From: Blautia parvula
Lineage (GTDB): Bacteria > Bacillota > Clostridia > Lachnospirales > Lachnospiraceae
Length of the DNA stretch: 64,000 nt
Reading direction: 5' to 3'
Assembly (NCBI RefSeq): GCF_020215665.1
Contig: NZ_CP084061.1
Coordinates: 5,237,001 to 5,301,000, forward strand
The position numbers and the translations under genes are program-made. The notes under the pieces are model-generated. The model did no database searches and had not been told where the DNA came from. It was given only the letters and a program-made list of their open reading frames with translations. Positions 4,738-33,136 of the stretch are shown piece by piece (the stretch's first letter is position 1; each line of letters starts with the position of its first letter).

Positions 4738-5742
4738 TTATTTCCGGTAGAAGTTTCTTCCGTAGGAATCATATTCCTCGGTGATCCAGCGTGCTTTTGC
4801 TTTGATCGCCTCGTCATCCGGTGCGCCGTATGTGCTGGCCCAGAATACAAAGCCGCCTCCCGGCGCAAAGTTATCAATACATTTGCGGACTTCAGCTCTG
4901 ACAACCTCCTCGGAGGTGTCCGGCCAGCCTGCAGGGCCTGAGGAATCCCAGCAGCCTTCCAGTACCAGGCTGTTTCCGTATTTTTTCTTGATACCTGCCA
5001 GGTCATTCATGGTCTGGGCGGGATTCCAGGCACATACGCCGAAGTCACGCCAGTCTTCTATGAAATCCTCACATCGGCCGCAGTCGTGCATATCAATGGG
5101 GATTCCGGCCTCCTGCGCGAATTTTGCTTCGCTTGCATGGAAGGGTTTTATCATCTCCCGGTACATCTCCACAGAGATAAACGGATTGGTTGCAGTTGCC
5201 GTATCGTCTGTGATCGCCCATACATCCGGTTTGTAATAGTCCCTGACTTTGCTGCATATCTGGAGATAGAACTGATTCATATACTCAAACAGCGCCATGA
5301 CTTCATCCGGTTCCTCCAGCATGGCGCAGAGGCCTTCTGTAAATCCCATAAAATTCATGAGCTGCTGGAAGTATCCAACATGTATGGTGGCAGTCACGGA
5401 TGTCTGTGTTCTGTCAACACGCTCCAGATCCTTTTTCGCCATGGTTTCCCAGTCAATATGTGAAATATCAGGAGCCTTGATGACATCACGCCAGTGGCAG
5501 ATGTCGTCCAGTATGAAGCGGCCCGGTTTAGGCAGGGACATATAGCCGGTTTCCTTTGTGGCAACGTATTCCACACCCCAGATATCAAAGCCGCCCATAG
5601 GCGTCTTGCGGGCGTTCAGGAATCCGGGCCCAACCCAGGCGGTAGCCGGAGCATGTCCCGGGGACGGAATCAGAAGCCTTGGTATCCATTCCGGGGTTTC
5701 ACCGCGCAGAGTCATCAGATAGTTATCTTTTTCAGTTAACAT
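4738..5742 (-). CDS. Uroporphyrinogen decarboxylase-type methyltransferase
   Basis: The 334-residue protein belongs to the UroD/MtaA/CmuA superfamily (for example VEMYREMIKPFHASEAKFAQEAG). It keeps a possible zinc site of methylcobalamin:thiol methyltransferases: HDCG around residue 217 followed by LEGCWD near residue 260. Haem synthesis is unlikely, since no tetrapyrrole gene is near. In anaerobes such proteins move methyl groups between a corrinoid protein and a second acceptor, for example in O-demethylation. No corrinoid protein or activator is in the window. It is the last gene of an operon with a CobW-like GTPase, a His-rich protein and an MFS transporter. The start has GGAGG 9 bases upstream. 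Confidence 0.75.
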   Translation of the reverse strand: MLTEKDNYLMTLRGETPEWIPRLLIPSPGHAPATAWVGPGFLNARKTPMGGFDIWGVEYVATKETGYMSLPKPGRFILDDICHWRDVIKAPDISHIDWETMAKKDLERVDRTQTSVTATIHVGYFQQLMNFMGFTEGLCAMLEEPDEVMALFEYMNQFYLQICSKVRDYYKPDVWAITDDTATATNPFISVEMYREMIKPFHASEAKFAQEAGIPIDMHDCGRCEDFIEDWRDFGVCAWNPAQTMNDLAGIKKKYGNSLVLEGCWDSSGPAGWPDTSEEVVRAEVRKCIDNFAPGGGFVFWASTYGAPDDEAIKAKARWITEEYDSYGRNFYRK

Positions 5743-5789
5743 AATATTACCTCCTTCTTATAGATGAAGCACAGAGAGTATCCGTTTGT

Positions 5790-6980
5790 TCAGGCCCGGG
5801 AAGTCTTCTTGTTGCCGCCGGTGACTACGATATAGATGGTGGCGCCAAGTACCAGACAAAGTGTGGAGACTGCGGTAATCCGCCATTCAGCCCTCAAAAC
5901 ATTCAGGTTCAGCAGATTTTTCACACCGTTGATGAGATAAGGGGAGAGGAACTGTCCGAGCCCCACACAGCTTGTATACACAGCGATCGCCTGGGAACCG
6001 AATTTGGGTTTTGCCGCTGTCCCTGCAATGAGCAGGTTGTAAGTGGGGTTGTAAAAGCCAAATCCCAGGCCGAAGATTGCTCCGCACATAATAAACAGGG
6101 CGAAATTCTGGGCAAAACAAAGAATCGCCAGCGCCAGTCCCACAAGCCCTGTGGAAATGACAGCCATATACCGCTGTGTCCTTTTGTGCAGACTTCCGAA
6201 GATCAGACCGGCTATAAATGCAAATATAGTATTGGTAGATGCAACCATAGAAACCTGGCCGGCACCTCCGATGCTCTCTCCGGTTATGACAAGTGACAGT
6301 TCCACATTAAATGACATCATACATGCGTTAAAAAATATGGCAAACAGGAGAACATAGAAGGTCTTTCTGGTATACTTTTTTTCTCCGGCATTTGCCGCGG
6401 TGCGTTCCTTTTTGATCGGTTCATTGGAGGGGCAGAAAAAGAGTACCAGGAGTGCAACCGGGATTGCAAACAGATAGCCCCAGAAGGCATGCCGCCATCC
6501 AAAGGAGGTCAGCCAGCCGCCCACCATAGTGACGGCAGCACCGAACAATGCACCGAACCCAGCTCGAAACCCCAGAAGCCGGGCCTTTTCTTCGCCCTCA
6601 TACAACTGCTGAATGATCGCGTTGGCCAGCGGGAAAACCGTTCCTGACCCCATGCCGTAGATAACCCTCATAACAAGGATAGCCGGCAGATTAAATACGA
6701 AATAAGTTCCGAAACCTGCAGCAAACATAATACAGGCACAGCCGATCACAATTTTCTTAATAGGAAAAATCTGTATCAGCTTACCGGACATCAGAGAGCA
6801 GACGATCATCATAAGGGACGGGATGGTGGAGAACAGCTTTACGGTAGTGACATCATACTGCGGAAATTCCTTGACCATGTAGGCCAGAGATGACGCGTTG
6901 ATGGTTGCCAGATATAACAGGGTACTGACAGACAACACGGCCACAGTATTCATTAAAGTGTATTTTTTCTTTTCTGCCAT
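5790..6980 (-). CDS. MFS transporter of the UroD/CobW operon
   Basis: The 396-residue protein has about 12 hydrophobic segments, with MFS features such as GKLIQIFPIKK in the loop after helix 2 and RVIYGMGSGTVFPLANAI in helix 4. The start at 6980 was chosen because GGGAGG lies 7 bases upstream; the frame is open further but without an RBS. It lies between the His-rich protein gene (20 bases upstream) and the uroD-like gene, so it probably imports the substrate of that pathway, such as a methoxylated compound. The substrate cannot be read from sequence. Confidence 0.85.
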   Translation of the reverse strand: MAEKKKYTLMNTVAVLSVSTLLYLATINASSLAYMVKEFPQYDVTTVKLFSTIPSLMMIVCSLMSGKLIQIFPIKKIVIGCACIMFAAGFGTYFVFNLPAILVMRVIYGMGSGTVFPLANAIIQQLYEGEEKARLLGFRAGFGALFGAAVTMVGGWLTSFGWRHAFWGYLFAIPVALLVLFFCPSNEPIKKERTAANAGEKKYTRKTFYVLLFAIFFNACMMSFNVELSLVITGESIGGAGQVSMVASTNTIFAFIAGLIFGSLHKRTQRYMAVISTGLVGLALAILCFAQNFALFIMCGAIFGLGFGFYNPTYNLLIAGTAAKPKFGSQAIAVYTSCVGLGQFLSPYLINGVKNLLNLNVLRAEWRITAVSTLCLVLGATIYIVVTGGNKKTSRA

Positions 6981-6999
6981 AGTGATTCCTCCCTTGTGG

Positions 7000-7446
7000 T
7001 CAGATGGAGAATAAGGGGCTGCTGTCAATTGCAGACTCTACGATCTGTGTCAAGATCTTTTTATCTATGAAGAGGGCAATGACTGCAGCATGTATTTTTA
7101 TGGTTGGAGACAGAGCCTCCTTTTTCATTGCTTCCGTATCCGTGAGGGATATCATAATGACCTCACTGCGCTCCATGGATGCTTTGATATGGCCTATGAT
7201 GCCGTTTTGTTCGGTGATATTCCGGGCAATGTTTTTAAAGAGCTGTTTCAGCAGGATCTCCGTCTGTTTTACATCCTCGCAGGAGCTCCATTCCAGAGAA
7301 ATAACACTGGCCTCATCCTGTGTATAGGCGTTCAGAGTGATGATCGTGTTATTCCTGCGCAGAGATTGGGAGGCGTGTTCGTGATGCTCATGGGTGTGGC
7401 TGTGGTGGTCATGTCCGTGTGTAGCTTCGTGGGATATTTCATTCAT
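7000..7446 (-). CDS. His-rich protein coupled to a CobW-like GTPase
   Basis: The 148-residue product begins MNEISHEATHGHDHHSHTHE and contains ten histidines within residues 10-26, a typical metal-storage or metal-delivery tail. The remaining 120 residues form a compact alpha/beta domain without cysteine pairs or membrane segments, which I do not recognise. The ATG overlaps the end of the cobW-like gene by 8 bases, with GGAGG 9 bases upstream, so translation is coupled. By analogy with HypB and UreE, it may hold Ni, Co or Zn for the GTPase. That role is inference. Confidence 0.65.
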   Translation of the reverse strand: MNEISHEATHGHDHHSHTHEHHEHASQSLRRNNTIITLNAYTQDEASVISLEWSSCEDVKQTEILLKQLFKNIARNITEQNGIIGHIKASMERSEVIMISLTDTEAMKKEALSPTIKIHAAVIALFIDKKILTQIVESAIDSSPLFSI

Positions 7447-8050
7447 AAGAATCACCCTCCAGTATAAAATCCCAAATACAGTGGGAAACAGGCTGGTTTG
7501 CAGAAGTCCGGAAAATCTTTGGAACCCTGCCCATATCCTGTATCTGCCGTTCGACTGCTTTCAGCGTATCCGGTGTGACCAGGTCCATCTTGTTGATCAG
7601 TACGGTATCCGCGTTTATAAGCTGGCCTGTGATCAGTTCATGAAGCGGTACAAGGAGACGTTCCCAGCGTGAAGCGTCAGCCACAATACAGATTCTGGAG
7701 GAGAGGGCCATGCTGTCAGCCAGGTTTTTTTGGATCAGATGGGGATAGGCCAGGCCGGTGGTCTCCAGGATCAGCCAGTCCGGCTGAAGTTCTTTTTCAA
7801 TCTTACTGACGGTCGACAGCAATTCGCCGGACAAGGTGCAGCAGGCACATCCGGAAAACAGGTTTTCAACCTGATATCCGTTTCCCCGCAGCAGCTTGTC
7901 ATCAATGCCTTCCTCCCCGACTTCATTTTCCAATATCACAACCTGATATTTTTTATCATTTAAGGCATGTCCGGTTATGTAATAGGCAAGCTGCAGCAGG
8001 AGCGAGGTCTTTCCGGAACCAAGGAATCCTCCAAGGATCAAAACTTTCAT
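7439..8050 (-). CDS. CobW/HypB/UreG-type metallochaperone GTPase, short form
   Basis: The 203-residue protein has the G3E GTPase motifs: P-loop GGFLGSGKT (7-15), the metal-binding CxCC as C68-A-C70-C71, ETTG around 96-99 and NKMD (153-156). It lacks the C-terminal CobW_C domain, so it is shorter than most COG0523 proteins. Such GTPases deliver Zn, Co or other metals to target enzymes. Here it is first in an operon with a His-rich protein and a UroD-type methyltransferase whose family uses Zn and a corrinoid partner, so metal or cobamide handling for that enzyme is plausible. The start has a GAGGTG site. Confidence 0.88.
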   Translation of the reverse strand: MKVLILGGFLGSGKTSLLLQLAYYITGHALNDKKYQVVILENEVGEEGIDDKLLRGNGYQVENLFSGCACCTLSGELLSTVSKIEKELQPDWLILETTGLAYPHLIQKNLADSMALSSRICIVADASRWERLLVPLHELITGQLINADTVLINKMDLVTPDTLKAVERQIQDMGRVPKIFRTSANQPVSHCIWDFILEGDSYE

Positions 8051-8306
8051 AATGATTCACCTCTTTCTATATTAGAAGCAGATGATTCGAGAGACTGTGC
8101 ACACAGATTTCTGAATTAATTGAATTATAAAATGAATTGAAAGATAAAAATAGGAGATGAGCGCACAAAAAACAGAAAAAATAGAGGTCTCATTTGGTGT
8201 GATAAGCACAAATTAATTGTCTGTGTCGAATTATGTATTTTTTTGACGTTTTATGGTATGATTTACTTTAGTACTACAGCGTGTTTTATTACAAGGGGGG
8301 AACTTT
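8051..8306. other. Divergent intergenic region, cobW-like operon / pucR-type regulator
   Basis: 256 bases, strongly A/T-rich. It must hold the promoters of both divergent units. A TTGACG (8241-8246) and a TATGAT (8256-8261) are visible but only about 9 bases apart, so they are not a matched pair. No cobalamin riboswitch-like G/C-rich conserved core was recognised. Confidence 0.4.
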
Positions 8307-9764
8307 ATGAAGTTAAGTATGCACATGATCGCGAACAGGATATATTTTCTTGATATGGAGATAAATTTAAGTGACAGCGACCCGCCGGTCTTGAAAAGTG
8401 CCAGACTTGTGTACGCCACAGACTGTGCATATATCTATGCAGAGGGCAGTGATACCATATGCGCTGCGGAATCCGGCAGCATCAGGCTCCGGGATGTGAA
8501 TCTGGCGGAGGGTTTTGATATCATCCAGAGTGTGTTTGACTTTTATGATGACTGGCAGCAGAATATTCTGGAGCTGGTGCTTCAGAGGTCATATCAGGAC
8601 CTGGTGGATGCCTGTTTCCGTGTCTTCCACAATCCTATGATCATGTTTGATGCAGACTGCAAGGTTCTGGGGATGAGTTCCCAGTATGGGGAGAATGACG
8701 TGGACAGGGAGTGGGCCTATCTGTCACGCCACGGTTATTCCTCCATTCAGGCTCTGGAATATATGAAATCTTACTATCCTGACCACGATTTTGAGTATGA
8801 GAAAATACTGCCGTTTCATTTTAAAGGAACTATTTTAAACTGTGAAGGAATCACCGGTGCCCTTATATACCAAAATGAATTTTTTCTGAGGATCAATGTG
8901 ATAGAAAAAGAAAGACCGCTGAATTACGGGGATTATCAGATACTGGAGATGCTTCTGCACATTATGCATCAGCATTTGGAAAAGAAGGAGGGAGAAAAGG
9001 AGAAGAACGCTGAAAATTCTGTATTCTTCAGTCTTCTGAACCGGGATGCCGTGGATGATGAAAAGCTGGCAAGGAAACTTGATTATGCCGGCTGGAAGGT
9101 TTCAGACGAATACCAGATTGTCCTGGTGTGTCCAAAGAGAACGGAAATGTCGGCAAAGGCAGCAGAGGTCCTGCGGACTACGATTATGAATATATTTCCG
9201 GAGAGCAGGATCGTAGGCGGTGAGAATGCTTTTGTTCTCATATGGAATCTCAGTAAATGCGGCAGCTTTAAGAGGGAACGCGTACGGCTTCTGTTGGAGC
9301 AGACAGAGGCTGATGTGAGCATGAGTCTTTGGATGGAAGGGATTTATAACGTATGGCATTTATACAGACAGGCAAAATCTGCGCAGAATATGAAAACATG
9401 GTTTTCCGGGGAAACAGACCGTATTTTTGATTTTTATAAGGCGGCAGCAGACCATATCCTTCTGTCAGGCGATATGGAGGATATGGTGTATGCCTGCCAT
9501 CCGGATGTGAGAAGACTGTGGTTAAGGGAACAGGAGGAGAAGGACGGCCTGTTTGCTACCTTTTCCTCTTATCTGAAACATGAGCGCTCCGTACTGAATA
9601 CCTCACAGGATGTCTATATTCATAGAAATACCTTATTATACAGAATCAGGAAAATAAAAGAGTTTCTGGAATCCGATCTGGATGACGCCTATACCAGGAA
9701 TTATATGCAGCTTTCTGTCATGGTATTGGAATTATATGAGATGCTGCATAAAAATCAGCCTTAA
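8307..9764 (+). CDS. PucR-type transcriptional regulator
   Basis: The 485-residue protein ends with the PucR/CdaR helix-turn-helix: YLKHERSVLNTSQDVYIHRNTLLYRIRKIKEFL. The N-terminal 230 residues resemble a sensory domain (NPMIMFDADCKVLGMSSQ), followed by a GGDEF-like regulatory linker. Members activate catabolic operons in response to a pathway ligand. It has its own AAGGGGGG ribosome binding site and is divergent from the cobW/uroD operon, so it is the natural candidate regulator of that operon. The ligand is unknown. Confidence 0.85.
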   Translation: MKLSMHMIANRIYFLDMEINLSDSDPPVLKSARLVYATDCAYIYAEGSDTICAAESGSIRLRDVNLAEGFDIIQSVFDFYDDWQQNILELVLQRSYQDLVDACFRVFHNPMIMFDADCKVLGMSSQYGENDVDREWAYLSRHGYSSIQALEYMKSYYPDHDFEYEKILPFHFKGTILNCEGITGALIYQNEFFLRINVIEKERPLNYGDYQILEMLLHIMHQHLEKKEGEKEKNAENSVFFSLLNRDAVDDEKLARKLDYAGWKVSDEYQIVLVCPKRTEMSAKAAEVLRTTIMNIFPESRIVGGENAFVLIWNLSKCGSFKRERVRLLLEQTEADVSMSLWMEGIYNVWHLYRQAKSAQNMKTWFSGETDRIFDFYKAAADHILLSGDMEDMVYACHPDVRRLWLREQEEKDGLFATFSSYLKHERSVLNTSQDVYIHRNTLLYRIRKIKEFLESDLDDAYTRNYMQLSVMVLELYEMLHKNQP

Positions 9765-25631: not shown

Positions 25632-26531
25632 ATGTTTAATAAGGAAAAAGTAAAATTAGGAATCGCACCTATCGCATGGACTAATGATGACCTTCCGGAC
25701 CTGGGAAAAGAGAATACCTTTGAGCAGTGCGTCAGCGAGATGGCACTGGCAGGCTTCACAGGTTCTGAGGTTGGAAATAAATACCCCAAAGACCCGGAAG
25801 TGCTGAGAGAAGCCCTGGAGCTTCGCGGCATGGAAATCTGCAATCAGTGGTTCTCCTCCTTTCTGATCACAAAGCCCTTTGAAGAAGTGGAGAAGGAGTT
25901 CCGAGCACAGCTTGCGTTCTTAAAGGCAATGGGCGCCAAGATCATCGGTGCATCCGAGCAGAGCCACAGCGTACAGGGCATGCAGGACACTCCCATTTTC
26001 GGCCACAAATACGTGATGAACGACCAGGAGTGGGAGACCTTCTGTACAGGTATGAACAGACTGGGTAAGATCGCAAAGGAAGAGTACGGGATCAGCCTGA
26101 CCTTCCATCACCACATGGGAACCGTGGTGCAGAACCCGGACGAGGTGGAGAGAATGATGGAAAATACAGATCCGGAATATGTGAGTCTGTTATTTGATAC
26201 CGGCCATTTTACCTACTGCGGCGCAGACCCTCTTGAGATGGTAAAGAAGTACGTGGGCAGGATCAAACACGTACATTTAAAGGATATCCGTCCGGAAGTG
26301 GTGGAGAAGGTAAAGAAAGAGAATTTAAGTTTTCTGGAAGGCGTGCGCCTGGGCGCGTTCACAGTACCGGGAGACGGATGCATAGACTTTGAGCCAATCT
26401 TCCAGGTGCTGGAAGAAGCGGGATATGAAGGATATATGCTGGTAGAGGCAGAGCAGGACCCTGCAAAAGCCAATCCGCTTAAGTATGCCATCAAGGCAAG
26501 AAAATTCATTGCTGAGAAGACAGGGCTTTAA
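25632..26531 (+). CDS. iolE: Inosose dehydratase IolE, copy 1
   Basis: The 299-residue TIM-barrel protein (AP endonuclease 2 fold) matches myo-inosose-2 dehydratase: LGIAPIAWTNDDLPDLG at the start, TFHHHMGTVVQNPDEV around 158-172, LLFDTGHF and HVHLKDIRPEV. It removes water from 2-keto-myo-inositol to give the dione used by IolD. AAAGGAGAA precedes the start. It is a stand-alone gene after the yesM/yesN pair. The second copy at 32237 encodes the same protein except for E5 to D5, although the two genes differ at about 20 bases. Confidence 0.93.
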   Translation: MFNKEKVKLGIAPIAWTNDDLPDLGKENTFEQCVSEMALAGFTGSEVGNKYPKDPEVLREALELRGMEICNQWFSSFLITKPFEEVEKEFRAQLAFLKAMGAKIIGASEQSHSVQGMQDTPIFGHKYVMNDQEWETFCTGMNRLGKIAKEEYGISLTFHHHMGTVVQNPDEVERMMENTDPEYVSLLFDTGHFTYCGADPLEMVKKYVGRIKHVHLKDIRPEVVEKVKKENLSFLEGVRLGAFTVPGDGCIDFEPIFQVLEEAGYEGYMLVEAEQDPAKANPLKYAIKARKFIAEKTGL

Positions 26532-32236: not shown

Positions 32237-33136
32237 ATGTTTAATAAAGATAAAGTAAAATTAGGAATCGCACCCATTGCATGGACCAATGATGACCTTC
32301 CGGACCTGGGAAAAGAGAATACCTTTGAGCAGTGCGTCAGCGAGATGGCACTGGCAGGCTTCACAGGTTCTGAGGTTGGAAATAAATACCCCAAAGACCC
32401 GGAAGTGCTGAGAGAAGCCCTGGAGCTTCGCGGCATGGAGATCTGCAATCAGTGGTTCTCCTCCTTTCTGATCACAAAGCCCTTTGAAGAGGTGGAGAAG
32501 GAGTTCCGCGCACAGCTTGCGTTCTTAAAGGCAATGGGCGCCAAGATCATCGGCGCATCCGAGCAGAGCCACAGCGTACAGGGCATGCAGGACACCCCCA
32601 TTTTCGGCCACAAATACGTGATGAATGATCAGGAGTGGGAGACCTTCTGTACAGGTATGAACAGACTGGGTAAGATCGCGAAGGAAGAGTACGGGATCAG
32701 CCTGACCTTCCATCACCACATGGGAACCGTGGTGCAGAACCCGGACGAGGTGGAGAGAATGATGGAAAATACAGACCCGGAATATGTGAGCCTGTTATTT
32801 GATACCGGCCATTTCACCTACTGCGGCGCAGACCCTCTTGAGATGGTAAAGAAGTACGTGGGCAGGATCAAACACGTACATTTAAAGGATATCCGTCCGG
32901 AAGTGGTGGAGAAGGTAAAGAAAGAGAATTTAAGTTTTCTGGAAGGCGTGCGCCTGGGCGCGTTCACAGTACCGGGAGACGGTTGCATAGACTTTGAGCC
33001 AATCTTCCAGGTGCTGGAAGAGGCAGGATATGAAGGATATATGCTGGTAGAGGCAGAGCAGGACCCTGCAAAAGCCAATCCGCTTAAGTATGCCATCAAG
33101 GCAAGAAAATTCATTGCTGAGAAGACAGGCTTATAA
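32237..33136 (+). CDS. iolE: Inosose dehydratase IolE, copy 2
   Basis: The 299-residue protein is identical to the product of the gene at 25632 apart from D5 in place of E5; the two genes differ at about 20 of 900 bases, nearly all silent. It shows the same inosose dehydratase features (TFHHHMGTVV, DTGHF, HVHLKD). It is the second gene of the iolG-iolE operon, 17 bases after iolG, and ends at a bidirectional terminator. Flanking DNA outside the reading frames is not similar, so only the gene is conserved. Confidence 0.93.
   Translation: MFNKDKVKLGIAPIAWTNDDLPDLGKENTFEQCVSEMALAGFTGSEVGNKYPKDPEVLREALELRGMEICNQWFSSFLITKPFEEVEKEFRAQLAFLKAMGAKIIGASEQSHSVQGMQDTPIFGHKYVMNDQEWETFCTGMNRLGKIAKEEYGISLTFHHHMGTVVQNPDEVERMMENTDPEYVSLLFDTGHFTYCGADPLEMVKKYVGRIKHVHLKDIRPEVVEKVKKENLSFLEGVRLGAFTVPGDGCIDFEPIFQVLEEAGYEGYMLVEAEQDPAKANPLKYAIKARKFIAEKTGL

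Follow-up and report, generated by a model that had tools for sequence, protein, structure and literature searches.

What do a CobW-type GTPase, a His-rich protein, a transporter, and a UroD-type enzyme accomplish together in one gene cluster? The question is raised by positions 4738 to 9764 of a 64,000-nucleotide stretch of the Blautia parvula genome (contig NZ_CP084061.1, positions 5,237,001 to 5,301,000; here, the window), where four leftward genes lie divergent from a gene for a PucR-type regulator. The host genome, a 6.25-Mb single contig, is labeled G000; other G and L numbers are labels of compared genomes and loci. We favor, with moderate confidence, the reading that the locus is an operon under PucR control, serving the use of a methylated substrate, in which the GTPase and the His-rich protein act as a split chaperone loading metal into the UroD-type enzyme, a predicted substrate-specific methyltransferase (MT1). 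The original prediction, made from the sequence alone, had described four tightly spaced genes under PucR, and we confirmed all five open reading frames (ORFs) and their coordinates; all but the His-rich protein matched a Pfam family.

7439-8050, minus strand: short COG0523 (CobW-type) G3E GTPase, 203 amino acids (aa), GTPase half of the putative split chaperone (PF02492, E = 1.2e-35)
8006-8032, minus strand: Walker A motif (P-loop) GGFLGSGKT, GTPase residues 7 to 15, invariant in 7/7 aligned sequences
7838-7849, minus strand: CxCC metal motif of the GTPase (CACC, residues 68 to 71), with C68, C70, and C71 invariant in 7/7
7000-7446, minus strand: His-rich GHIK-domain protein, 148 aa from its ATG (ORF to 7455 from a GTG); fused homologue in L221, 1480-2580+
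7375-7431, minus strand: His-rich segment, 10 His in 19 residues (residues 9 to 27 of the GTG-started ORF)
7183-7194, minus strand: GHIK signature of the C-terminal domain, residues 88 to 91, from a 16-member alignment
4738-5742, minus strand: UroD-superfamily enzyme, probable corrinoid-dependent methyltransferase (MT1) (PF01208, E = 4.2e-10)
5080-5088, minus strand: His219-x-Cys221, putative metal ligands of the UroD enzyme, His and Cys in 114/114 clade members
5790-6980, minus strand: major facilitator superfamily (MFS) transporter (ORF to 7028 from a TTG; PF07690, MFS_1, E = 7e-46), with an ATG and Shine-Dalgarno-like sequence at 6980
8307-9764, plus strand: PucR-type regulator with HTH_30 (PF13556, E = 1.4e-13)

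Two genes resembling the halves of one COG0523 chaperone

The cobW nucleotide-binding domain (PF02492) covers residues 3 to 175 of the GTPase (123.2 bits against a cut-off of 20.7). The chain ends after this domain, and a Pfam scan found no CobW_C in it, as expected from the original description of a CxCC GTPase lacking the CobW C-terminal domain. The protein aligned with six short homologues at 34 to 85% identity. Two further models scored below their cut-offs, namely HypB (21.7 bits against 121.2) and NCBIfam NF041053, a CobW-related selenoprotein that is also short (195 positions) and matched residues 1 to 174 (77.6 bits against 180). CxCC is the COG0523 metal motif, and in the accessible part of the same source COG0523 proteins are linked to Zn(II), Co(II), or Fe, with a variable C-terminal domain thought to select the client (PMC7689651). 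At this locus a C-terminal domain of another kind (GHIK) comes from the adjacent gene and not from the same chain.

That adjacent gene encodes a His-rich linker followed by a C-terminal domain of about 110 residues with G-H-[IL]-K and S-x-T motifs; in 16/16 aligned sequences the G, H, and K of the first motif are invariant, and the I is nearly so. Its ten His span 19 residues, not the 17 first counted. The AlphaFold model of the domain has a mean pLDDT of 92 and the strand-helix order bb-a-bb-a. No Pfam family matched the window protein above cut-off, and no Pfam or NCBIfam family was common to more than 2 of the 16 domain members; a PDB sequence search with our first GHIK profile returned a mitoribosomal protein alone (E = 0.084).

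The relation between the two genes is suggested by longer COG0523 proteins. In L221, a GTPase part, a His/Asp-rich linker, and a GHVK domain follow one another in a single 366-aa chain; by its coordinates the gene is the 366-aa COG0523 gene of L119, and the same stretch has a UroD gene together with genes for a corrinoid protein (CP) and a methyltetrahydrofolate:corrinoid methyltransferase (MT2). L222 and L223 hold long COG0523 proteins without the His linker and with GHLK in the C-terminal part, L222 being placed between two CP matches. A GHIK profile built from 46 separate domains scored 17.3, 22.6, and 19.4 bits on the C termini of L221, L222, and L223, against 2.7, 2.6, and 6.4 bits for the best of 200 shuffled versions of each. 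A His/Cys-rich linker also occupies the equivalent place in ordinary CobW proteins of relatives (7 of the 8 sequences shown). Since long COG0523 proteins with a GHIK-type domain exist, the window's two genes match the two halves of one chaperone, and the GHIK protein looks like the detached linker and C-terminal half, a relation that the original prediction had missed. Another candidate fusion, a 377-aa frame in L212, was discarded, as its GTPase frame lies in another phase.

The linker is highly variable in length among relatives, with up to 68 His in 273 aa, and in L034 (7556-8365) and L091 (6526-7347) it apparently expands by in-frame tandem repeats. In L095, the GHIK protein is without the His-rich tail, and alongside it is encoded a separate 100-aa protein (7636-7938) containing HHHHHGETCNCHHDD, which matched DUF1292 below cut-off. 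An AAA ATPase gene follows the GHIK gene in L037 (6938-8422) and L072, from two genomes of the same genus. The G068 pair (L035, 8003-9138) is a CobW gene and a His-rich gene without UroD nearby; judged by eye, it lies a few kilobases from genes resembling NifB, NifV relatives, and GcvH.

A UroD-type enzyme with an invariant His-x-Cys

The UroD enzyme matched PF01208 (URO-D) with 39.6 bits against a cut-off of 23.9, and its model has a mean pLDDT of 91.7. Its top PDB match by Foldseek was 4ay8, a methyltransferase of Methanosarcina mazei (2.9e-10), which we take to be a zinc enzyme with a His-x-Cys site. Zinc methionine synthase gave weaker structural matches, ranked below the MtaA-type and UroD ones. 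The enzyme did not reach the cut-off of TIGR01463 (MtaA/CmuA methylcobamide methyltransferases; 22.1 bits against 235.4), and no HemE model was among the five NCBIfam families listed at E <= 1.

The original prediction placed a metal site in an HxCG...C pattern, which corresponds to His219-x-Cys221-Gly and a later Cys in GCWD. Of these candidates, a 16-member UroD alignment shows no variation at the two HxCG ligands, His and Cys, whereas the GCWD Cys varies. We then aligned 192 distinct UroD proteins, counting identical proteins once (the window copy is L063) and excluding frames below 280 aa or 30 bits. Among proteins scoring above 340 bits to the profile of the window's clade, a limit set by us, as were the distance limits used below, both His and Cys were present in 114/114. 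Of the 78 other UroD proteins, 43 kept the Cys and 35 had Asp or Glu instead; at this position, the 23 other rows shown from the window's own genome had Cys in 9, Asp in 11, and Glu in 3. UroD proteins adjacent to chaperone genes (n = 52) kept the His in 52 and the Cys in 47. Zinc enzymes are known among UroD-superfamily MT1s, the accessible part of PMC13222342 naming veratrol and vanillate O-demethylases.

Linkage of the chaperone pair to the UroD clade

We searched 116 genomes of relatives, G000 included. A short CobW close to the window's (E <= 1e-30) was found in six (G000, G002, G008, G009, G018, and G068), with two copies each in G000 and G008, and a GHIK search found five, plus a sixth, divergent copy beside the G068 CobW. 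The exact order of the window, PucR divergent from CobW-His-MFS-UroD, occurred only in G000 and G008. The second copies in these two genomes and the loci of G009 and G018 consist of UroD, CobW, and His-rich genes, with an added GPH-type transporter in G018; G002 combines UroD and CobW with PucR and a GPH-type transporter, and its His-rich gene is found at the edge of another contig. The exact four-gene set, whose co-occurrence the original prediction had named as a check, was thus seen in only 2/116 genomes, the own included. The recurring set is UroD, CobW, and His-rich protein, of which MFS is not a part.

In a wider sample of 391 genomes of the class, the first GHIK profile matched 12, the window's own included. 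Twelve GHIK neighborhoods outside the own genome (L090 to L101) contained a short CobW in 11 and a UroD in 11 (E <= 1e-15); the twelfth, L097, ends near a contig edge, where a CobW piece is visible. Across 55 distinct GHIK loci, 47 had a short CobW within 2.5 kb, read in the same direction, and 38 had a UroD within 3.5 kb, while CP and MT2 lay within 5 kb in the same 8 loci, and at least one of UroD, CP, or MT2 was present at 41. After removal of the eight loci that came from a scan starting with UroD, the counts were 40/47 for the short CobW and 30/47 for UroD. With a larger GHIK profile, 14/391 genomes matched, including three weak matches (G317, G374, and G428), two of which adjoin CP and MT2; a UroD-clade profile (E <= 1e-60) matched 12/391, and 11 had both. 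A match of the first profile in a 2171-aa frame of G432 was set aside as likely false; it was gone with the larger profile.

The scan starting with UroD used the UroD alignment against genome contigs and kept the best 79 of 366 relatives, 46 of them with both 4-kb flanks complete. Within 4 kb of these genes we found PucR at 17/79, GPH transporters at 13/79, and MFS transporters at 7/79. Host genomes were searched for 32 of the 79 loci (31 distinct genomes), a nonrandom set chosen manually, for the most part among the best-ranked loci, 23 of the 32 having complete 4-kb flanks. GHIK was present somewhere in 27/31 of these genomes at E <= 1e-3 and in 25/31 at E <= 1e-10. Leaving aside four genomes picked because the pair was in cis (L136, L142, L150, and L171), GHIK was present in 23 of the 27 picked at loci without the pair within 4 kb of visible sequence. 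Mapped on a UroD tree (106 clade members and 8 others), chaperone adjacency required 16 changes, where shuffled versions needed 28.9 on average and 0/500 were as low; adjacency is clustered yet was gained and lost repeatedly, with at least 13 changes among the scored rows.

Corrinoid context of the UroD enzyme

A CP profile gave no match above 12 bits anywhere in the window, in agreement with the original statement that no corrinoid protein gene is present, and MT2 is likewise absent from the window. Elsewhere in the genome, and overlooked by the original prediction, are corrinoid proteins and MT2: there are seven B12-binding_2 matches (six at listed places outside the window, the seventh without a listed place), three pairs of neighboring CP and MT2 genes outside the window, and three RACo_C_ter matches. 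Together with the 30 URO-D matches against 7 of B12-binding_2, these make shared corrinoid proteins plausible, and the excess hints at orphan MT1s that share a few of them. URO-D also outnumbers corrinoid proteins in the clostridia G391 (25 to 2) and G478 (28 to 1); the ratio is opposite in G204 (17 to 26) and G406 (28 to 36), so that the excess is not general.

In relatives, the same genes do sit with a corrinoid system. At L092, L095, L096, and L099, genes for a corrinoid protein and MT2 lie beside the GHIK and UroD genes, and two such genes were confirmed as encoding a B12-binding corrinoid protein and a methyltetrahydrofolate:corrinoid methyltransferase. A clade UroD is encoded with CP at L119, L123, L124, and L126. 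The likely MT1s next to CP and MT2 at L224 and L225 also belong to the URO-D family, with other site residues. Because CP and MT2 lie near 8/55 GHIK loci, corrinoid-dependent demethylation (as MT1) is the most likely function of the window enzyme. The original prediction is partly supported: the metal-handling pair is linked to UroD-type enzymes well outside this genome, and some relatives have the trio in corrinoid methyltransferase operons, in line with demethylation.

Proposed mechanism and alternatives

In the reading that we favor, the MFS protein would import a methylated substrate, and the UroD-fold enzyme, as substrate-specific MT1, would transfer the substrate's methyl group to a corrinoid protein whose gene lies in another part of the genome, from which MT2 would move it to tetrahydrofolate. 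The short GTPase would bind metal at CxCC and hydrolyze GTP. In its partner, the His-rich linker would hold metal, and the detached GHIK domain would recognize the client. Acting together, the two pieces would supply the His-x-Cys site of the UroD enzyme with a divalent metal, most likely Zn(II); that the chaperone acts on this enzyme itself, as originally proposed, is our inference. The sequences themselves show the two-piece architecture, the fused relative, the recurring UroD linkage, the corrinoid operons of some relatives, and the invariant His-x-Cys, whereas direct loading, zinc, demethylation, and a corrinoid protein in trans go beyond them. The simplest account is that a metal-dependent clade of MT1s is served by a chaperone whose client-choosing domain and His-rich reserve have been split off. 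We put forward more tentatively, as a possibility somewhat short of an even chance, that the short CobW and the GHIK protein, whose client-recognizing domain belongs to no consistent Pfam or NCBIfam family, form a metal insertase of two genes dedicated to the His-x-Cys UroD clade, acting in cis or in trans on a genome's orphan MT1s.

Several observations weigh against the favored reading. For the GHIK model, Foldseek gave generic folds (ribosomal, ACT-like), with query-length TM scores of at most 0.49 among the 50 matches listed. The iSTAND family (PF19995, cut-off 24) gave an unexplained match, passing in the L033 orthologue (27.9 bits) and reaching 20.1 bits in the window protein; at E <= 0.01 it matched 0/9 other full-length GHIK members, and we set it aside as the family of the protein because only 2 of the 16 domain members match it, although it slightly lowered our confidence in the favored reading. 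Homology of GHIK with the ordinary CobW C-terminal domain was not supported by hhalign (E of 0.04 to 0.06, probability about 1%), and the GHIK profile scored above decoys on none of 13 full-length ordinary CobW proteins, the readable ones from 24 loci (L007 to L030); we therefore restrict the claim to the GHIK-bearing subset of COG0523. On the side of the enzyme, the UroDs of L095 and L099, two of the four in the clade with CP and MT2, branch deep on the tree, and no third metal ligand was identified in the UroD site. Unlike the zinc proposed here, UroD-family MT1s free of zinc have been reported, CdmB and the Moorella O-demethylase (accessible part of PMC13222342), so that a metal requirement of the window enzyme is not a given.

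The linkage has its own exceptions. No short CobW above threshold was found at 8/55 GHIK loci, and 14/55 had no UroD, CP, or MT2 nearby. Fisher's test on the 391-genome table of GHIK and UroD gave p of about 6e-18, a value that is partly circular and ignores relatedness; since most seeds of the UroD profile had been taken from GHIK-carrying genomes within that very sample, we placed more weight on the UroD-first result. There, within 4 kb, a short CobW was present at 14/79 loci, GHIK at 11/79 (each with CobW), CP at 4/79, and MT2 at 3/79. The nearest UroD orthologues, L102 (82% identity) and L103 (81%), have PucR and MFS and no chaperone genes in their incomplete 4-kb flanks, and L104, L105, L106, and L108 (72 to 76%) have complete flanks and no pair. 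In 4/31 host genomes GHIK was absent at E <= 1e-3, and in G517 the match is a fused gene about 4 kb from UroD. The original prediction named four genes not kept together as a finding that would speak against it, and this is half the case, as the closest PucR and MFS-UroD loci lack the chaperone genes. The pair is thus an optional neighbor, and the window operon looks like a PucR and MFS-UroD operon with the pair between PucR and MFS.

These exceptions bear on the alternatives. The split chaperone could be a general metal supply of methyl-using anaerobes, serving several MT1s, corrinoid proteins, or other clients, and standing in the operon for co-regulation. This would account for a genome-level co-occurrence that exceeds adjacency (27/31 genomes against 14/79 loci), for the 14/55 GHIK loci without UroD, CP, or MT2 nearby, and for the repeated gain and loss of adjacency on the UroD tree. 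We regard it as on the unlikely side, as UroD still adjoins 38/55 GHIK loci (30/47 without those from the UroD-first scan), including two copies in the own genome, and adjacency is more clustered on the tree than in shuffled versions. A role on the corrinoid side, whether cobalt delivery or the loading or gating of a corrinoid protein as by MeaB for methylmalonyl-CoA mutase, has precedent in MeaB, which gates the loading of B12, and in CobW, a supplier of Co(II) (accessible part of PMC7689651), and it would fit the CP genes at 8/55 loci and the position of the L222 protein with its GHLK between two CP matches. It is very doubtful given that UroD outnumbers CP at the GHIK loci by 38 to 8, the window locus being among those with UroD.

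The UroD enzyme could instead be independent of corrinoids, as a zinc enzyme passing the methyl group directly to a thiol or as another lyase or decarboxylase. The absence of CP in cis, the ratio of URO-D to B12-binding_2 matches in the own genome, the presence of CP near only 4/79 UroD-first loci, and the structural resemblance to zinc methionine synthase, though weaker than that to MtaA-type and UroD proteins, all suit such an enzyme. Clade members do occur with CP and MT2 (L092, L095, L096, and L099) or with CP (L119, L123, L124, and L126), and the best PDB match is a methanogen methyltransferase, which makes independence from corrinoids distinctly improbable.

Operon organization and neighboring genes

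Judged from Shine-Dalgarno-like sequences, the MFS gene most likely starts inside its ORF, with the ATG at 6980, and the start of the His-rich gene is most likely codon four, the ATG at 7446. With these revised starts, the CobW and His-rich genes overlap by 8 nucleotides, and 19 and 47 nucleotides separate the His-rich from the MFS gene and the MFS from the UroD gene, respectively. This spacing, with the Shine-Dalgarno-like sequences, is compatible with a single transcript for the four genes. PucR also adjoins the homologous operons in L032, L033, and L036. An Rfam scan of the window gave no match at gathering thresholds. Promoter-like sites in the window were at chance level (6 against 5.8) and terminator-like sites numbered 8 against 3.8; no reading rests on either.

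Elsewhere in the window, two 299-aa ORFs (25632-26531 and 32237-33136) lie 6.6 kb apart and differ at 1 residue and 22 bases. Judged by eye, their neighbors resemble myo-inositol catabolism genes.

Relation to known systems and significance

A CobW-type GTPase near methyltransferases is not in itself new. Genes of COG0523 subfamily 13 were found co-localized with corrinoid-dependent methyltransferases, including in clostridia, in 2009 (Haas et al.; PMC2770081), and a cobW gene was reported in an O-demethylase cluster of Intestinibacter bartlettii from the gut in 2021 (PMC8398226). Compared by description and not by sequence, subfamily 13 shares with the window a GTPase beside methyltransferases, and the accessible part of that description includes neither a separate His-rich GHIK partner nor a UroD-only operon. 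Corrinoid O-demethylase and Cdm systems (MT1, CP, and MT2; accessible part of PMC13222342) likewise have a UroD-superfamily MT1, and some relatives of the window locus sit with CP and MT2; unlike these systems, the window has no CP or MT2 in cis and has chaperone genes in the operon. Type 1 mlp clusters, described in the accessible part of PMC10418091 as Mlp with a corrinoid protein and Ram/RACE, differ in that the window has no corrinoid protein; Ram/RACE was not searched for. We found no description of a split COG0523 protein with a His-rich partner for UroD methyltransferases in the open-licence literature.

Within that literature, what looks new is the division into two genes, the GHIK domain and the fused proteins related to it, and the association, at the level of genomes, with one His-x-Cys UroD clade. 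In nickel insertion by UreG/UreE and HypB, a small G3E GTPase likewise works with a His-rich, metal-holding partner. The window pair differs in that its GTPase is a CxCC COG0523 protein, its partner has a GHIK domain, and its probable client is a UroD-type enzyme. The relation between UreE and UreG is also described in the accessible part of PMC2770081.

How UroD-type demethylases acquire metal, and why some need none, is unsettled in the accessible literature. If the insertase reading is true, the MT1s that need it would mark the metalloenzymes among corrinoid demethylases. The clients of COG0523 proteins are generally hard to name, and genome context here points to one; the GHIK domain, without a clear family, gains a probable role. 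Methoxyl groups of dietary compounds and drugs are demethylated by bacteria, gut Blautia among them (accessible parts of PMC9602652 and PMC12915777), and the set of working MT1s bears on this activity. The pairing of chaperone and enzyme recurs in related anaerobes, where it probably helps UroD enzymes to obtain their metal.

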